A stretch of 48,253 nt of DNA. It comes from Phycisphaerales bacterium. Its GTDB lineage: Bacteria > Planctomycetota > Phycisphaerae > Sedimentisphaerales > Anaerobacaceae. Location of the stretch: assembly GCA_030602885.1 (NCBI GenBank), contig JAUVYV010000027.1, positions 1 through 48,253 of the forward strand, read 5' to 3'. Numbering within the stretch: position 1 is the first letter of the stretch; the number at the start of each line of letters is the position of its first letter. The position numbers were made by a program, and so were the translations under genes. The notes beneath the pieces were generated by a model. The model searched no databases. It was not told the origin of the DNA and saw only the letters and a program-made list of their open reading frames with translations. Of this stretch, positions 3,440-36,777 are shown piece after piece.

Positions 3440-3486
3440 AATTCGTATCTCGCATCTCGTATATCGTATATCGTATATCGCATCTC
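3440..3486. repeat. Short tandem CGTATATCG-type reiterations
   Basis: Repeats of CGTATCTCG, CGCATCTCG and CGTATATCG in direct succession. Similar words (CGAGATACGA on this strand) occur at about 47025-47061 next to the tRNA gene. Confidence 0.7.
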
Positions 3487-3522
3487 GTCAATGGCCTTAG
3501 CCCGTTAGGCCGTTGACGTGGC

Positions 3523-3653
3523 GGGGGGCAAGGAAGTGAGAAGTGGGATTGTTAATTTACGATTGCCGAAAGGGAAGGACGGAGGGAATATCGAATTAAG
3601 AAGTGGATTCCCGCCCTGCCAAACAGACGGCGGGTAAATCTCGCGGGAATGAC
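3523..3653. repeat. 131-bp direct repeat, copy 1
   Basis: Nearly identical to 3970-4100 (offset 447 bp, one mismatch noticed). It begins with a G run and GCAAGGAAGTGAGAAGTGGG and ends with a GC hairpin (CCGCC...GGCGGGTAAA) and CGCGGGAATGAC. Part of its start resembles a stretch inside addB near 12712. No gene is seen here. Confidence 0.85.
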
Positions 3654-7200: not shown

Positions 7201-7491
7201 TTAACTGGTACAGTTTTCGAGGAGCAGACCATTTCTGCTTTGCACCATTTTATTGTTCTTGCTACCAAAGAAATATTCCTTTGCGAATAAAACACCGATA
7301 ATCAGAACAGCGATTATTAAGAAAGCACCTGCACCGCCCAGCCCACCCGCCATCTCCGCAAGCTCGCTGTCAGCAACCGCCAGATTGAGCTTGGCCGGTG
7401 CCAATACCAGCAGGCCGTTATCGGTTGATGTGAATTGCTCTCTGTCACTCATGGCTGAGCGTTTTCTATGGATTTCAATGGTTGTTGACAT
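7201..7491 (-). CDS. Possible small membrane protein
   Basis: An open frame of 96 codons, with an internal ATG at 7452 that would give 83 residues. Residues about 45-70 form one clear hydrophobic segment (GAGAFLIIAVLIIGVLFAKE) preceded by a Gly-rich run. The rest is polar. It matches no family I recognise and has no strong ribosome binding site. The opposite strand here is open only as a spurious extension of the pentapeptide gene. Codon choice looks protein-like, but the call is tentative. Confidence 0.45.
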   Translation of the reverse strand: MSTTIEIHRKRSAMSDREQFTSTDNGLLVLAPAKLNLAVADSELAEMAGGLGGAGAFLIIAVLIIGVLFAKEYFFGSKNNKMVQSRNGLLLENCTS

Positions 7492-7576
7492 TGTGCACGT
7501 CCGGCCTTATTTTAAACATCAAAATCAGCCACAGAGCTCACAGAGAAAAAGTAAAAATCAAAACGCAAAAATCAAA

Positions 7577-8521
7577 ATGACAAAGGAAAATTCAAAAAGA
7601 GAGAATAGTCAACGGCGGTTCAGCCAGCAGCAGTACGAGATGCTCAAACGCTGCTCAGATAAAAAAGATATGACAGAGTGGAATGAGTGGTGTGAGAAAA
7701 ATCCTAATGAAAAGATTTGGCTTGAAGGAGCAGGCCTCACCGAAGCACACTTGGAAGGAGCGGACCTCGCGTTTGCCCATCTGGAAGGAGCGTACCTCAG
7801 CAAAGCCCATCTGGAAGGAGCGGGCCTCACCGAAGCGCACCTGGAAGGAGCGGACCTCGAGTTTGCCCGTCTGGAAGGAGCGAATCTCGTGTATGCCCAT
7901 CTGGAAGGAGCGAATCTCCGGTTTGCCTATCTGGAAGGAGCGGATTTTGCAGTAGGTGTTGTTGATGGTTCAACCTTATTATGGGAATGCACTATTGACC
8001 GCGAGACGAATTTCCGCGGTGTTGGTCTGGGCGGCGTGCGGATAGACTCGAGGACAAAACAGCTTTTGGAATATAACATTAGGCGGATGAATTGGGAGGA
8101 TTGGTATAAGGGGCATGCGAAGCTGAAGTGGTTAGTGAAACCTTTTTGGTGGATGAGCGACTACGGCCTTTCGACAGGGCGGATAATCGCCACGTTTTTT
8201 GTTTTGGCGTTTGTTTTTGCGAATATTTATTACCACTGGGGGAGGATTGCTCGGCCGGGGATTGTGGAAAACCTTTTCGTTGACCATAACGGCGTTGCAA
8301 TACAGTGGTGGCTTGTTCCACTCCGGACTCTCTATTTTTCCATTGTCACCCAGACAACCCTCGGGTTCGGCGACATGTATGCAAATGCGCACAGCATATT
8401 CGGGCACATATTGTTAAGTATTCAGGTGATGTTAGGGTACGTTCTTTTGGGGGCGCTGATCACACGATTTGCGGTACTGTTTACGGCAGGCGGGCCTGCT
8501 GGTAGGATTGATGATCGATGA
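7577..8521 (+). CDS. Pentapeptide-repeat ion channel protein
   Basis: A 314-residue protein. Residues about 45-130 are a run of pentapeptide repeats of the form A(D/N/G)LxxA(H/R)LEG, which would fold as a right-handed beta-helix facing the cytoplasm. The C-terminal part has a hydrophobic helix (GRIIATFFVLAFVFANIYY), a pore region with TLYFSIVTQTTLGFGDMY, and a final helix (ILLSIQVMLGYVLLGALI). TTLGFGD corresponds to the K+ channel selectivity filter (usual TVGYGD), so this is a two-helix pore of the Ion_trans_2 type. The frame is open back to 7253, but that part is proline-rich and overlaps a possible minus-strand gene, so the ATG at 7577 is taken. Ion selectivity and gating stimulus are not known. 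Confidence 0.85.
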   Translation: MTKENSKRENSQRRFSQQQYEMLKRCSDKKDMTEWNEWCEKNPNEKIWLEGAGLTEAHLEGADLAFAHLEGAYLSKAHLEGAGLTEAHLEGADLEFARLEGANLVYAHLEGANLRFAYLEGADFAVGVVDGSTLLWECTIDRETNFRGVGLGGVRIDSRTKQLLEYNIRRMNWEDWYKGHAKLKWLVKPFWWMSDYGLSTGRIIATFFVLAFVFANIYYHWGRIARPGIVENLFVDHNGVAIQWWLVPLRTLYFSIVTQTTLGFGDMYANAHSIFGHILLSIQVMLGYVLLGALITRFAVLFTAGGPAGRIDDR

Positions 8522-8652: not shown

Positions 8653-8680
8653 CCCGCGCAATAAAATTGCGGGGCTAAAT
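8653..8680. repeat. GC-AT hairpin element, copy 1
   Basis: CCCGCGCAATAAAATTGCGG followed by GGCTAAAT. The CAAT and ATTG arms and the flanking CCCG/CGGG form a hairpin. The same element occurs at 12081-12146 (interrupted) and 12155-12182, at the front of addB. Confidence 0.7.
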
Positions 8681-12080: not shown

Positions 12081-12146
12081 CCCGCGCAATAAAATTGCCG
12101 GCCCGCCTAAGGCGGGTAAAAGGCGGACAAGATTGCGGGGCTAAAT
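12081..12146. repeat. GC-AT hairpin element interrupted by a GC-rich element
   Basis: The GC-AT hairpin element begins at 12081 and its 3' part (GGGGCTAAAT) resumes at 12137. Between them lies about 33 nt (GCCCGCCTAAGGCGGGTAAA plus AGGCGGACAAG) flanked on both sides by ATTGC (12094-12098 and 12132-12136). This is the pattern expected of a small element inserted with a 5-bp target duplication. Confidence 0.7.
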
Positions 12147-12154
12147 GTTTGAAG

Positions 12155-12182
12155 ACCCGCGCAATAAAATTGCGGGGCTAAA
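12155..12182. repeat. GC-AT hairpin element, copy 3
   Basis: Intact copy (CCCGCGCAATAAAATTGCGG then GGCTAAAT) immediately upstream of the addB start. It is read in frame with addB, so start calling from 12145 would add about 18 residues encoded by the repeat. Confidence 0.7.
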
Positions 12183-12198
12183 TGCGCGGAATGATAAT

Positions 12199-15100
12199 AT
12201 GTCGGTAGAGTTTATATTGGGCAGGAGCGGGACGGGCAAGACGCGGTATTGCGTTGCGGGGGTGGTGGAGGGTCTGTGCCGTGAGGGGGACGGGCGGGGG
12301 ATTATATTACTTGTTCCGGAGCAGGCGACGTACCAGGCGGAGCGGGCGATATTAGGTGGAGGGGAAATCAGCGGCTATCACAGGTTGAGTGTTCTGTCGT
12401 TCAGCAGGCTCGAGTATATGCTGTTAGGCAGTCGGACGGCAATGGGGTCGGTGTCGCGGATTGGGCGGGCGATGATAGTTCAGCGGATACTGCGTGAGAA
12501 GCGTGACCAATTGGCGCTGTTGGGGGCCAGTGCCGAGCGGAGCGGCTTAGGGTGGGAGATTGCGGAGGTGATTGGGGAGATTTATCGCTATGGGTATGGG
12601 GCGGAAGACTTAGAGCGGGTATCGGGTGAGCTGGAAGCAGGAAGTAAGAAGTTAGAAGTGGGAAGTGAGAATGGATCCTCTGTAGCGGGCCAAGTTAGCA
12701 GCACTCTAGGACAAGGAAGTGGGATTGCAGGATTGAAGTTCGGCGAGATTGCGCTGGTAGTGGAGGAGTATCGGCAGAGAATAGAGGGTAGGCGAGTGGA
12801 TCCGGATATTCAGTTGAAGGAGGCCTGCGAGAAGGTTGCAAAGGCGGAATGGCTGGCCGGGGCGGAGGTATGGGTGGATGGTTTTTCGGGCTTTACGGGC
12901 AGCGAATCGGCGATGCTGACGGAGCTTATGAAGGTTGCGTCGGCGAGTCATATTGCGCTGTGCCTTGAGCCGGCGAGGATGGATTTACGGGGGACGAGGC
13001 GGGAGCAGGGCGATGTGAGTATCTTTTCGCCTACGGAGCGGACTTATTATGATATTTTTGATCGGGCGAAGAAGTGTAAGTTGAAGATTAGGCGGCCTGT
13101 TGTATTGACTGGGGCCAAGAGGTTCGATGGTAGCGGTGAGCTGGCGCATATCGAAAGGGAGATTTTTTCAGGTTCGCAGAAGAAGGCGGTGTGCGGCGGG
13201 GCGGCGGGGGTGGCAAAGACAGAAGTCAGAAGTCAGAAGTCAGAAGTTAGAAGTCAGGAGTCAGGAGTCAGGAAGGCCGGCGGTGGGGACAGGTTGGAAG
13301 TAAGAAGTAAGAAGTTAGAAGTGGGAAGCGGAGATGTGGAGAATGTTCGTATTGTGTGTGCGGCGAATGCACGGGGGGAGGTGCAGTTTGTTGCGAGGCA
13401 AATACTCGAATTAGTGAGGGAGAGGGGGTATCGATATCGTGATATTGCGGTGGTTGCGTCGGATATCGGGAGTTATGAGCATTATGTGATTGCGTGTTTT
13501 GAGGACTATGGGATTCCGTTTTTTATTGATAAGTGCAAGGTGCTGAGCCGGCACCCGGTGGTCGAGTTGATATGCTCGGCTTTGAGTGTAGTGACGGAGG
13601 GCTTTTCGAGCAGCGATGTTTTTGCATATCTGAAGACGGACCTTGCAGGCGTTGAGCGGGAGATGGGTGATTTGTTAGAGAACTATTGCGTTGCGTTCGG
13701 GGTGAGGGGGGCGGACTGGGTGCGGGAGAAGGGGTGGGAGTTTGCCGGTGGAGACGATGCGCGCTTCGATGAGGCGAAGGTCAACGAGATTAAAGGGCGG
13801 GTGCGGGGGCCTTTGGTAAAGCTGGCCGAGCGGTTAGGGGCAGGTGAAGGTGAGGGGATTTGTGCAAGGGAGTTTACAGAGGGGGTATTTGAGTTTTTGG
13901 ATGAGCTTGGGGTAAGCGGTACACTTGCAGGGTGGATTGAGCAGGCGAGCGATGGTGGGGACATTGGTGCCCGCCAAGGGAAGGGCGGACAAGCTGCGGA
14001 TGAGCATGGTCAGTTCTGGGAAAGGTTTGTGGATGTGTTTGACGAGCTTAGCGAGGCGTTCGAGGAGTGTAAGTTAGTTTGCGAGGATTATCTTTCGATA
14101 TTGAAATCTGCGTTTTCCGAGATGACGATGGCGTTTATACCGCCTACGCTTGACCAGGTTTTAGTCGGTTCGATAGAACGGAGCAGGCATCCGGATTTGA
14201 AGGCGGTGTTTTTGCTTGGTGCGACGCAGAAGGAGTTTCCCGTGCCGATTGAGTCGGTGGGTATCTTAGGTGACGAGGACAGGGCTTTGGCTGAGCGGGC
14301 GGGGATGGAGCTTGGGAGCAGCAGGCGTGAGAGCATGGTGGAGAGGCAGTACCTTGCGTATATCGCGTTCACGCGGGCATCGGAGTATTTGTGTGTGACG
14401 TATCCGGCGGTTAATGAAAAAGGCGGCGGGGTTGTTCGGTCGCAGTTTGTGGATAGTCTGGAAGGGCTTTTTGAGAATCTGCAGGCCGAGTCGATCGGGG
14501 CCGAGGAGATTTGCGTTGAGCGGATTTACAGTGCGAGTGAATTAGAGGATATGCTCTGCTGCGGGCTTGGGAGAGATGCAGAGGCGCAAACGGGCGCGCA
14601 TGGCGAGTTGTTGGCTGCAATGTGCGGTGATGCGGAGCTTGGTGAGCTGGCCCGGAGGGTGACAAGCGCGATAGGTTACGAGAATCGTGCTGAGTTAGGT
14701 GCGGAGGTGGTGGGAGGACTTTTCGGTAAGTGCCTGCGGAGCTCGGCGAGCCGACTTGGTACGTTTGCGAGGTGTCCGTATCAGTATTTTTCGCGGTATG
14801 TTCTGGATTTGAAAGAGCGGGCGGAGTTTAAGTTGGAGCCATTGGACGTAGGGGACTTTTATCATCGGGTGCTGGATGCGGTCGTCAAGAGATTGGTTGC
14901 GGAGAAAAAGGATATAGCGGCTGTCGAGGAGGGGCGGCTTGTGCAACTTGTGCGGGAGGTGACAGGGCAAGTAATGGAGAGCGATTCGTTCATGGTGAAT
15001 TTTGGCCGGCACGGCGGTCATAATGCGTTTGTTTTGAATTGTGCGTGCGAGAATGTGGAGCGGTGCGTTACGGCTGTAGCTGAGATGATACGGGCGGGTG

Positions 15101-15822
15101 TGTTTCGGCCTGTGCGTTCGGAAGTGGGGTTCGGGACTATTGCCGGGCAGCGCGGAGAATTAGGTGATTTGCGGATTGAGTTAGGGGAGGGGCGTGAGCT
15201 GAATCTTCGCGGCAAGATAGACCGGGTTGACGCAGCCCAGACGGATGAGGGGAAATTAGCGGTAGTGTTTGATTATAAGCGCAGCGGAAAGTCGTTTAGC
15301 TGGGACGGATTGCTCTACGGGCTTGATTTGCAGTTGGTGGTTTATCTTTTGGCGCTGAGTGATTCGCAGAATGGTCGGCAGATAGGGGGCCGGCCGGTAG
15401 GCGCATTCTTTGTGCCGGTGGAATCACGGCCTGGAAGGCCGTGGTACGCGAAGGGGATATTTAACGGGGAATTCTGGGAGCAGTTGGACAAGGGGTGTTC
15501 AAGGTGGAGCAGGTATTATAATTTTGATGTCACGGCGAAGGATGGTCAGTACGGCAACTACGGCAAGAGCGGAGCGCTTAGGGGCGGGGATTTTGAGAAG
15601 GTGATTGAGTTCGGGAAGGGTAAGGTTGTGGAATTGGCGGAGGGGATAGTTTCGGGAGGGATTGATGTTCGGCCTTACCGGCTCAGGGGCAAGAGCGCGT
15701 GCGGGTGGTGTAAGTATAAGTCGGTGTGCAGGTTTGACTGGCAGGTGAACGAGTACAGGTATCTTGAGGGGATGGGTAAGACGGAAGTGCTTGGGCGGAT
15801 AGGCGATGGCAAAAAAGATTAA
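12199..15822 (+). CDS. addB: AddB, helicase-nuclease subunit B
   Basis: A 1207-residue subunit of AddAB, which resects double-strand breaks for RecA. FILGRSGTGKTRY at the N-terminus is the Walker A motif. A UvrD-like C-terminal region follows (RQYLAYIAFTRASEYL). The C-terminal nuclease has VVFDYKRSGKSF (PD-(D/E)xK type) and the four-cysteine iron-sulfur site: one Cys in FARCPYQYF and three in SACGWCKYKSVC. The ATG at 12199 is chosen because upstream in-frame codons are a dispersed repeat. Oddities: three internal stretches look repeat-derived, at residues about 144-179, 338-379 and 589-599 (SEVRSQ-like units, a CCTCTGT element and a GC hairpin), yet the frame stays open. Overlaps addA by 17 bp. 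Confidence 0.92.
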   Translation: MSVEFILGRSGTGKTRYCVAGVVEGLCREGDGRGIILLVPEQATYQAERAILGGGEISGYHRLSVLSFSRLEYMLLGSRTAMGSVSRIGRAMIVQRILREKRDQLALLGASAERSGLGWEIAEVIGEIYRYGYGAEDLERVSGELEAGSKKLEVGSENGSSVAGQVSSTLGQGSGIAGLKFGEIALVVEEYRQRIEGRRVDPDIQLKEACEKVAKAEWLAGAEVWVDGFSGFTGSESAMLTELMKVASASHIALCLEPARMDLRGTRREQGDVSIFSPTERTYYDIFDRAKKCKLKIRRPVVLTGAKRFDGSGELAHIEREIFSGSQKKAVCGGAAGVAKTEVRSQKSEVRSQESGVRKAGGGDRLEVRSKKLEVGSGDVENVRIVCAANARGEVQFVARQILELVRERGYRYRDIAVVASDIGSYEHYVIACFEDYGIPFFIDKCKVLSRHPVVELICSALSVVTEGFSSSDVFAYLKTDLAGVEREMGDLLENYCVAFGVRGADWVREKGWEFAGGDDARFDEAKVNEIKGRVRGPLVKLAERLGAGEGEGICAREFTEGVFEFLDELGVSGTLAGWIEQASDGGDIGARQGKGGQAADEHGQFWERFVDVFDELSEAFEECKLVCEDYLSILKSAFSEMTMAFIPPTLDQVLVGSIERSRHPDLKAVFLLGATQKEFPVPIESVGILGDEDRALAERAGMELGSSRRESMVERQYLAYIAFTRASEYLCVTYPAVNEKGGGVVRSQFVDSLEGLFENLQAESIGAEEICVERIYSASELEDMLCCGLGRDAEAQTGAHGELLAAMCGDAELGELARRVTSAIGYENRAELGAEVVGGLFGKCLRSSASRLGTFARCPYQYFSRYVLDLKERAEFKLEPLDVGDFYHRVLDAVVKRLVAEKKDIAAVEEGRLVQLVREVTGQVMESDSFMVNFGRHGGHNAFVLNCACENVERCVTAVAEMIRAGVFRPVRSEVGFGTIAGQRGELGDLRIELGEGRELNLRGKIDRVDAAQTDEGKLAVVFDYKRSGKSFSWDGLLYGLDLQLVVYLLALSDSQNGRQIGGRPVGAFFVPVESRPGRPWYAKGIFNGEFWEQLDKGCSRWSRYYNFDVTAKDGQYGNYGKSGALRGGDFEKVIEFGKGKVVELAEGIVSGGIDVRPYRLRGKSACGWCKYKSVCRFDWQVNEYRYLEGMGKTEVLGRIGDGKKD
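12676..12711 (+). repeat. CCTCTGT hairpin element inside addB
   Basis: Copy 5 of the element (TCCTCTGTAGCGGGCC then TTAGCAGCACTC), ends TCCT/AGGA. It is translated in frame as part of a Ser/Gly-rich linker of AddB. It is bordered by GAAGT reiterations (about 12643-12672) and by GGAAGTGGGATTG, a word shared with the repeat at 3523. Confidence 0.65.
13219..13325 (+). repeat. GAAGTCAGAAGT-type reiteration inside addB
   Basis: Tandem AGAAGTCAGAAGT/TCAGGAG words translated as repeated SEVRSQ-like units, ending with a second block of GTAAGAAGTTAGAAGTGGGA that also occurs at about 12644-12664. Both blocks sit between conserved AddB regions and keep the frame. Confidence 0.75.
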
Positions 15823-34569: not shown

Positions 34570-36234
34570 TCAAGATGTCCTCCATGTCTCGCGCGACATG
34601 ATTTCGCGGACTTTGGGTGCAGGTGGTTTTTGCCCCTTTTTTCGGAGCTTGGGCTTTATTTCGTGAAATCCTTTCATGACGAATATAGCTATCCAATATG
34701 CGCCCCATACGAAGCCGAAGCCAGCTACGCAAAACAGGAACAGGGTGACGGGCAGATAAACGGGCCTGTTCATAAACGGCAGGGTGACGAGTGTGTCGAG
34801 ATGGCCGCTGAGGAAGTAGCCACCTCTGGCTGCGAGGATTCCGCCTATTATAGCGCCCAGGGCAGAGAGTATCCAGGTCAAACGTTTTAGGCCCTTGTTT
34901 ACATTGGCCGGTCCTTGCGTGTTCAGGTGCCCATTTGTGCCTGCTGCGACATTGCTGAGCTTAAGCTGGGCCGTAGCGGCTTCGTCTTCAGCTTTTGCTC
35001 TGGCTTCAGTTTCTGCCTCGACCTGGGCCTGTGCTCTGAGTCGGGCTTCGGTTTCGGCCCTGGCCTGTGTTTCGGCTTTGGTACGTGCGTGTATCTCGGC
35101 CTTTAGCTTTTCTTCGGTTTCTTCTCTTGCTTCGGTTTGGGCCTTGAGTTGTATTTCAAGTTCGATTTTGGCCTTGTGTTCTGCCTGCGTCTCTGCCTCT
35201 GCCCTTGATCTTGCCTCGATTTCGGCTTTCAGCTTCTTTTCTACGGCGGCCCGTGTTTCGCTTTCGGCCTTGAGCTCTTCTTTAGCTTCAATTATGGCCT
35301 GGGTTTCTCTCTCTGCTTTTGTTTCAGCCCTTGACCTTGTCTTGATTTCGTTGTGCAGTTTCTCCTCTGCTTCAGCTCTTTTTTCAATTTCGGCTTTGAG
35401 TCTTTCCTCGCTGTCGATTCTGGCCTGAGATTCATGCTGTGCCTGAGTTTCGGCCCTTGACCTTGCGGCGATTTCGCCCTTGAGCTTGTCTTCAAGCTCG
35501 GTCCGGGCCTGGGAAATTGCTCTTAGTCTTTCTTCTGTTTCTCGTCTGGTGTTCATTTCGGCCTTGGCTTGTTCTTCGGCTCTGGACCTGGCTTCGATTT
35601 CGGATTTGAGGTGTTGTTCGGCGGTGATTCTGGCTTCAGTTTCGGTCTTGAGTTTTTCCTCGAATTCATCTTTTTCGCGGACCTGTATCTGTGCGAGCTG
35701 TTCGGCTCTGGATCTTGCCTCAGTTTCGGCTTTGAGCTTTTCCTCCAGCTCGGCTTTTGCTTCGGTTTCGGTCTTTAGTTTTTCTTCAGTTTCGGCAAGG
35801 GTTTTTGCATAAGCTCCGATCTTCTCATCGGTTTCGTTTCTTATCCGGCGTTCGAGCTCGGTGCGTAATTGTTCTTCGTCTTTTGTGTTGCTTTCGGGTT
35901 GCGTTTTGAGTTTCTCTTCGAGCTCTGCTTTTATTTGCGTTTCGGTCTCTAATTTTTCTTCCAGTTCGGCCTTGGCCTGGATTTCGGCCTTTAGCTTCTC
36001 GGCGAGCTCGTGTTTTTCTTCGGTCGCAACTTTCAGTCGCTCTTCCAGCTCGGCCTTTGTTTCCGCCACGATTGCTACAGGGATACCGTCGTTCGGTGGA
36101 TTGTCGGAGCTTATGCCGCCGCGTCGGTCCGGTGCCCTGACCTGCTTATTACATCGCGAACAGGTAACGACTTTGCCGACCATGTCGGAGGTGATGTAGA
36201 AACCGTGCCGGCAATGTGGACAGTCTGCTATCAT
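34570..36234 (-). CDS. Zinc-ribbon coiled-coil membrane protein
   Basis: A 554-residue protein. The N-terminus (MIADCPHCRHGFYITSDMVG, then CSRC) is a CxxC...CxxC zinc ribbon. About 340 residues of near-continuous coiled coil follow, made of imperfect 11-residue reiterations like AELEEKLKAE and SRAE, dominated by Glu, Lys, Ala and Thr. The C-terminus holds two hydrophobic helices (LTWILSALGAIIGGILAARG and FLFCVAGFGFVWGAYWIAIF), so it is probably anchored in the membrane by its tail. The ATG at 36234 is chosen since the upstream open frame lacks the zinc ribbon and runs through the antisense of the thi leader. Function unknown. Confidence 0.8.
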   Translation of the reverse strand: MIADCPHCRHGFYITSDMVGKVVTCSRCNKQVRAPDRRGGISSDNPPNDGIPVAIVAETKAELEERLKVATEEKHELAEKLKAEIQAKAELEEKLETETQIKAELEEKLKTQPESNTKDEEQLRTELERRIRNETDEKIGAYAKTLAETEEKLKTETEAKAELEEKLKAETEARSRAEQLAQIQVREKDEFEEKLKTETEARITAEQHLKSEIEARSRAEEQAKAEMNTRRETEERLRAISQARTELEDKLKGEIAARSRAETQAQHESQARIDSEERLKAEIEKRAEAEEKLHNEIKTRSRAETKAERETQAIIEAKEELKAESETRAAVEKKLKAEIEARSRAEAETQAEHKAKIELEIQLKAQTEAREETEEKLKAEIHARTKAETQARAETEARLRAQAQVEAETEARAKAEDEAATAQLKLSNVAAGTNGHLNTQGPANVNKGLKRLTWILSALGAIIGGILAARGGYFLSGHLDTLVTLPFMNRPVYLPVTLFLFCVAGFGFVWGAYWIAIFVMKGFHEIKPKLRKKGQKPPAPKVREIMSRETWRTS

Positions 36235-36456
36235 GTATCTGTACCCTTTAAGAAAGTATACAAATATAATTTCGTGCATCAAAACGCCCGACTTTACGAG
36301 AAAAGGGCCAAGGCCGCGATTTCGGGCTAAAAAGGGCGTTTGTGTGAGCGAAAGGGCCTGTAATATAGGCGCTGCTCGTACTGTTATGATGTTCGGGGCC
36401 GATCTCGGCTGAGTGTGCCGGTAAAGCAGTCGGTAGCAGGCGCCGATTGAACGCAT

Positions 36457-36485
36457 TTGACATTGGTTTGCTGTTGTGGTATGGT
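36457..36485 (+). promoter_or_regulatory. Probable promoter of the thi operon
   Basis: TTGACA (36457-36462), 17-bp spacer, TATGGT (36480-36485). It would start transcription about 180 nt before the TPP aptamer. The leader also contains a CCCCGG-TGTA-CCGGGG hairpin (about 36600-36615). Confidence 0.5.
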
Positions 36486-36667
36486 GGCGACCGTTGGCAT
36501 TGTGATAGCGCAGACTGTGAGCGAGTGAAACGAAGTTTGTTGCAATGTGTTTGAGAGCGTCTGTATGAGCCAGGGGAGCCGGCCCTGTACCTATTTTGGC
36601 CCCGGTGTACCGGGGGTGCAAGCAGGTCTTTGCACTCAGTAGTGAATGTTGCTTCAATGTCAAAATA

Positions 36668-36777
36668 GGTGCGGGGTGAGCGGCTGAGAAATGCAGCACG
36701 TATTGAATATTGGCTCAGGGCCAATAGGTGCTGGATGACCCTACGAACCTGATCAGGTTAACACCTGCGAAGGGAGG
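36668..36777 (+). promoter_or_regulatory. TPP riboswitch (THI element)
   Basis: The aptamer has GGTGCGGGGTGAGC, then the invariant GGCTGAGA (36682-36689), an extended P3a-type hairpin (AGCAC...GTGCT enclosing TATTGG/CCAATA), ACCC pairing with GGGT, and the conserved second half CGAACCTGATC, GTTAACACCTGCGAAGGGA. It binds thiamine pyrophosphate. It sits directly before a strong terminator and thiF, so binding of TPP should promote termination and shut off thiFSGH. Confidence 0.93.

Follow-up and report, generated by a model that had tools for sequence, protein, structure and literature searches.

Among short mobile repeats, the small dispersed repeats (SDRs) of Nostoc, which Elhai et al. are said to have described in 2008 in a study that PMC3116915 cites, are reportedly hairpins of 21-27 nt that are self-nested and lie in tandem heptamers; they are said to form eight families, to be regarded as mobile and to be among the smallest mobile elements. 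The palindromic elements of Rickettsia (RPE) are about 100-150 nt long and occur in frame in protein genes. The hairpin units described here, which carry a YAAR tail, resemble a class that has so far been described in cyanobacteria, and the Nostoc SDRs are the closest known kind. Compared by description, the two share size, hairpin fold, self-nesting and heptamer context: the YAAR units are a short dispersed hairpin repeat (63 units) that nests in its own copies. Unlike the SDRs, they occur in Planctomycetota instead of cyanobacteria, have the YAAR tail, share one fixed hairpin-loop site among units with unrelated stems, are present once in frame within a gene, and have a host without a detectable reverse transcriptase. 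The sequences of the Nostoc SDRs are reportedly also different.

The second group to be compared is that of the REP sequences. In P. fluorescens, excision was seen for REP doublets only and not for singlets (PMC3116915). The insertion sequences ISPsy8, IS1397 and IS621 target REPs, and ISPsy8 inserts at the symmetry axis and leaves a 3-bp repeat (PMC1525189). The locus described here also has an insertion within a hairpin-forming repeat, but, whereas these three are complete insertion sequences that encode a transposase of their own, the inserted sequences here are hairpins of 19-25 nt.

The window, i.e. the whole stretch of 48,253 nt analysed here, is contig 42 of a genome of 3.2 Mb (128 contigs, 97.6% complete), of which the stretches around matches were read directly. 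The features of the locus under study are the following.

12081-12146, + strand: split copy of a CTAA-tagged hairpin, with halves 12081-12093 and 12132-12146
12094-12131, + strand: insert of 38 nt, two nested 19-nt hairpin units according to length bookkeeping and unit lengths
12094-12101, + strand: 5' portion of the outer unit (19 nt), reading ATTGCCGG where canonical composites read TCCGCCGG, by comparison with L064 and L072
12102-12120, + strand: inner 19-nt unit, CCCGCC-TAA-GGCGGG-TAAA, by family comparison
12121-12131, + strand: 3' part of the outer unit, AGGCGGACAAG, with a CAAG tail, by comparison with other composites
12156-12183, + strand: intact CTAA-tagged hairpin with a similar left flank, adjoining the split copy and forming a built-in empty site
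8653-8680, + strand: intact CTAA-tagged hairpin, by sequence match
12199-15822, + strand: addB, encoding subunit B of the helicase-exonuclease AddAB, by profile matches

The intact hairpin, CCCGCGCAATAAAATTGCGGGGCTAAAT, is 28 nt long and has 15 copies in the genome when up to 3 mismatches are allowed, 12 of which are exact (control, 0). An earlier note on this DNA had placed intact copies at two sites of the window, and they are indeed found at 8653-8680 and 12156-12183. The note had also claimed that the copy at 12081 is split by an insert of about 33 nt. The split is borne out, but the size is not: at 66 nt, this copy exceeds the 28-nt hairpin by a net 38 nt (12094-12131), and 33 nt would follow only on the assumption of a 5-bp duplication. 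Exact matches to the right half, TTGCGGGGCTAAA, are found at 15 places in the genome, and only at 12133 does the left half stand apart from it. Because an intact copy with a similar left flank lies directly downstream, the 12081 locus has its own empty site; both hairpins are located just upstream of addB.

The gain of 38 nt corresponds to 19 + 19, exactly two unit lengths. When the inner CCCGCCTAAGGCGGGTAAA (12102-12120, 19 nt) is taken away, the remainder is ATTGCCGGAGGCGGACAAG, also 19 nt, and the outer hairpin, which ends in GGCGGA-CAAG, contains the inner unit within its loop. On our reading, a 19-nt TAAA unit occupies the loop of a 19-nt CAAG unit, and the pair sits at the loop edge AATAAA|ATTGCG of the larger, TnpA_REP-type hairpin. 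As the gain equals two units, AATAAA and ATTGCGGGG were probably parted by the entry of a complete composite. Taken alone, a nested insertion without target-site duplication is very probable.

The family pattern CCGCCN{1,14}GGCGGRYAA has 86 matches in the genome against 4 for the reversed pattern, which served as control. It also matches all the GC hairpins listed earlier at other places of the window (1087, 1648, 3611, 4058 and 13971). A length census that permitted loops of 2-12 gave 63 units of 19 nt (28), 24 nt (25) or 25 nt (10). Their tails are TAAA (44), CAAG (14) or mixed (5), and 58 of the 63 are closed by a C-G or T-A pair. A unit consists of a single stem-loop, closed by a Y-R pair and followed by the four bases YAAR (TAAA or CAAG) as a tail. 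The YAAR-tailed hairpin units are a real family. As a family marker, GGCGGACAAG was rejected, since its 27 matches are mostly ordinary coding sequence. The following units of the window lie upstream of the split hairpin.

359-382, + strand: 24-nt unit with a TAAA tail, after a heptamer array
1086-1109, + strand: 24-nt unit with a CAAG tail, at the corresponding place in a diverged duplicate
1647-1665, + strand: 19-nt unit with a TAAA tail
3615-3638, + strand: 24-nt unit that occupies a GGATTCCCGC/GCGGGAATGACA hairpin loop
4062-4085, + strand: 24-nt unit that occupies another hairpin loop of this GGATTCCCGC/GCGGGAATGACA type, in a duplicated segment

Several repeats surround these units. A long repeat is present in two copies (1-460 and 662-1207) that are 97% alike over 300 nt and differ at the hairpin site (359-382 versus 1086-1136). 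Tandem heptamer-like arrays (CGTATTG/CGTATCG) at 1003-1085 and 3446-3490 are insertion sites of units, in one orientation, and heptamer-like flanks also surround the units in L075, L084, L092 and L097; the YAAR units therefore do occur in tandem heptamer arrays. Elsewhere in the window, 30-nt repeats resembling those of pentapeptide-repeat proteins are present in an ORF at 7253-8521, and a 42-nt repeat is present in a long ORF of the reverse strand at 34570-36699, which probably encodes a coiled coil.

Nesting of one unit in another is not confined to 12081. The exact nested pattern has 6 matches in the genome, and 7 of the 148 genomes from the order contain it, the controls giving 0 in both cases. 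In the genome, 13 nested units were listed, besides more in others. With few exceptions, a single base separates the inner unit from the outer 3' arm that follows it, and the orientation is the same throughout; a pattern search for inverted nesting gave 0, nesting and orientation both being scored with patterns that favour one geometry. In several genera, units also occupy loops that belong to other hairpins, again in a constant orientation. Arms enclosing units were observed 9 times against a mean of 5.9 with shuffled flanks, a comparison that says little because the flanks are themselves repeats. In a public genome set, the nested pattern is present mainly in Planctomycetota, plus one marine bacterium. 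Matches in Betaproteobacteria and Oscillospiraceae were discarded, as the YAAR tail of the outer unit is missing from them and they appear fortuitous. There is also a match in one viral contig (L189, 5056-5092), which may be a misassigned bacterial contig.

Filled sites can be compared directly with empty ones. Exact pairs with a gap of 0 are L069 and L107 versus L046, L035 versus L025, and L042 versus L023 and L035, and a fourth pair, L047 versus L062, has one substitution. The exact junctions are AGTCCGCCGT|AGGCGGATAAATATTG, CCGCCAAAAAGA|CGGGGGG and ACTGAT|TAACGCAGATTAACACTG, with an ambiguity of 0-1 nt. Most of these pairs are paralogous repeats, for which the empty copy may instead have lost a unit precisely.

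The hairpin GGATTCCCGC-TTTC-GCGGGAATGACA has about 17 empty copies with a 4-nt loop in the genome. At its CCCGC|TTTC|GCGGGAATGACA site, clear fillings of 24 or 22 nt are present at 3610, 4057, C84, C19 and C96, besides other forms. In the filled copies of the genome, CCCGC is directly followed by CCTGCCAAACAGACGGCGGGTAAA, CCCGCCACACGAATGGCGGGTAAA or TCCCCGCCTGCGCGGGGACAAG; in relatives, TCCCTTGGGGATAAA, TACCCGCTTTCGCGGGCACAAG and TCCTTCGACTTTGCTCAGGACAGG occur at the identical point, and other hairpins fill it in the genomes G015 and G009. These different fillings at one CCCGC point mean that units of unrelated stem share one site and have similar tails. Because this site adjoins the 5' arm, the position one base before the 3' arm is not a general rule. 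Sequences like TCCTTCGACTTTGCTCAGGACAGG were also seen at the CCCGC loop site of G009 and G005, so that this repeat may belong to the unit class.

A further unit is located inside a gene.

13970-13993, + strand: 24-nt unit in frame in addB, 8 codons (ARQGKGGQ), by alignment with relatives

For addB, the profile TIGR02773 matches with an E value of 3e-193 but below its cut-off, while PF21445 and PF12705 are above theirs; the gene likely starts at ATG 12199. The 8 residues from the unit are absent in alignable relatives, which gives the polarity: the insertion in addB is derived. This unit lies outside any recognised hairpin. Other in-frame stretches missing in relatives come from the GAAGTTAGAAGTCAGAA-type repeats at 13199-13330 and 12632-12665, which add about 43 residues (near 327-369) and about 12 residues (near 150-165), respectively. 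Several repeat kinds have thus invaded addB. As in the RPE, a palindromic repeat stands in frame in a protein gene, although it is just 24 nt. REPs within repair genes have been reported for other bacteria (PMC3733652).

The earlier proposal that one small hairpin element has entered another and that such elements are mobile thus agrees with the exact filled/empty pairs and with the addB insertion. Judging from these comparisons, hairpin loops of this genome appear to have repeatedly taken up other hairpins of 15-25 nt, by clean insertion and without target duplication, and a DNA-repair gene to have taken up one.

Which enzyme might be involved was approached through the Y1 genes, of which the genome has six. 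CTAA-tagged hairpins lie within 400 nt of a Y1 gene at 16 of 26 loci, and at 5 of the 6 genes of this genome, against 22 of 1000 random segments (2.2%). Their stems vary from gene to gene. Next to the Y1 gene in L129 there is an exact copy of the split hairpin, and L130 has a diverged copy next to its own Y1 gene; the split hairpin belongs to the CTAA-tagged group that flanks TnpA_REP-like genes. The best model for the Y1 proteins is the REP-associated tyrosine transposase NF047646, with 33.7 and 27.8 bits, below the cut-off of 80. At L129, L130, L131, L128, L132 and the related loci L169-L187, the Y1 genes encode about 150-240 aa and are flanked by CTAA hairpins with differing stems; these are REP-type systems with a TTAG instead of a GTAG tag. 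Accordingly, the split hairpin is like the REP/TnpA_REP/RAYT systems in its 3' CTAA tag (5' TTAG on the other strand), in flanking Y1 genes and in that each gene has its own stem (PMC2817692, PMC6006769, PMC8266576, PMC3733652), and unlike them in its tag, CTAA/TTAG, the canonical GTAG being absent.

The inserting units behave differently: they occur as singlets and do not flank Y1 genes, being found beside such a gene at 1 of 26 loci against a background of 30 in 1000. Adjacency thus gives no support to regarding them as RAYT products, and the TnpA_REP link that the earlier note had suggested holds for the hairpin that was hit and not for the units that hit it. Across 41 genomes, the number of units does not track that of Y1 genes (rho 0.06), and G019 (genome 74% complete) has 20 units and no Y1 match. 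On the opposite strand, both hairpin kinds show TTTA at or beside the 5' foot of the GC hairpin; in TnpA_REP systems, the guide tetranucleotide sits at the 5' foot (PMC8266576).

The units insert without target duplication, in a fixed orientation and with a mild target preference (purine at -2, G/T at +3, G/C at +4 in the flanks), often in the loop of another hairpin. We propose that they would move as folded single-stranded DNA into single-stranded targets, e.g., hairpin loops exposed during replication, and a Y1 (HUH) transposase acting in trans would probably move them. Because of the TTTA at the 5' foot, the lack of duplication and the fixed orientation, strand-specific single-strand transposition in trans is the leading, but unproven, model. 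Taken as one statement, stacked mobile units that nest without duplication and move as single strands by means of Y1 seem to us slightly more probable than otherwise; the Y1 step, judged separately, is tentative and falls short of probable. That hairpin loops would be attachment sites for a strand-specific trans-acting system, which stacks 15-25-nt hairpins of unrelated stem recursively and recognises them by fold and YAAR tail, is a rather doubtful extension.

The main rival of single-strand transposition is polymerase template switching, in which a stalled nascent strand would copy another hairpin and return, no dedicated enzyme being needed. The preference for hairpin loops would suit it, as would the lack of an enzyme gene linked to the units and some repeats whose arms are replaced instead of inserted (L105 versus window 360). 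Yet units of unrelated stem (CCGCC, CCCCGC, CCC) have ends alike in form, the 4-nt tail included, junction homology is just 0-1 nt, orientation is fixed, and the addB unit lies outside any recognised hairpin, and we consider switching unlikely.

Less likely still is the entry of a 33-nt element in the manner of a classical transposon, with a staggered cut that led to the duplication of ATTGC. As had been noted earlier, ATTGC does stand at 12094-12098 and 12132-12136 and only once in each intact copy; one exact 5-mer match has a probability by chance of about 0.1%, and a duplication would account for it without an altered left arm. As a trait of the units, however, the duplication fails, because the other exact filled/empty pairs show none; among the insertions compared, only that at 12081 has a direct flank that is single in the empty site. 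The 33-nt insert would be the unit pair minus exactly the 5 nt supplied by duplication, and a non-exhaustive search found no transposase with matching ends. When the intact hairpin is scored with a flank profile of the other units, the highest-ranking position is AATAAA|ATTGCGGG, whose score of 3.33 is among the top 2.8% in the window, and ATTGC|GGGG scores -3.5, although the profile mainly fixes the right junction and is by itself compatible with duplication. The left ATTGC is more likely an altered 5' arm of the outer unit: ATTGCC differs from the canonical arm TCCGCC at three bases (3/5 against TCCGC), and T-G pairs would let it still pair with GGCGG. Its match to the target ATTGC may be due to conversion from the adjacent arm or to chance.

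RNA-mediated insertion of short folded transcripts has reportedly been proposed for the Nostoc SDRs, and a stable hairpin, fixed orientation and no duplication would fit that route. It is nevertheless very unlikely here, as a search for reverse transcriptase (RVT_1) in the 97.6%-complete genome found none and unit number did not correlate with such genes across the 41 genomes. Finally, that GC-rich hairpins arose independently and only appear nested is practically refuted by the controls (4 versus 86 and 0 versus 6) and the exact empty sites, even if single weak motifs such as GGCGGACAAG are chance.

Units of this kind are among the smallest mobile sequences known, and the addB case is one of a YAAR unit entering a coding gene in frame. 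Single insertions are seldom found together with their empty site, and the way in which REP-like and other tiny repeats spread is therefore still an open question. The hairpin GGATTCCCGC-TTTC-GCGGGAATGACA is one attachment site with many empty and several filled copies across genera, holding units that differ in sequence. Such sites are a defined substrate with which a TnpA_REP-like enzyme, polymerase switching and other routes could be told apart, and on which the needs for tail and loop could be determined.
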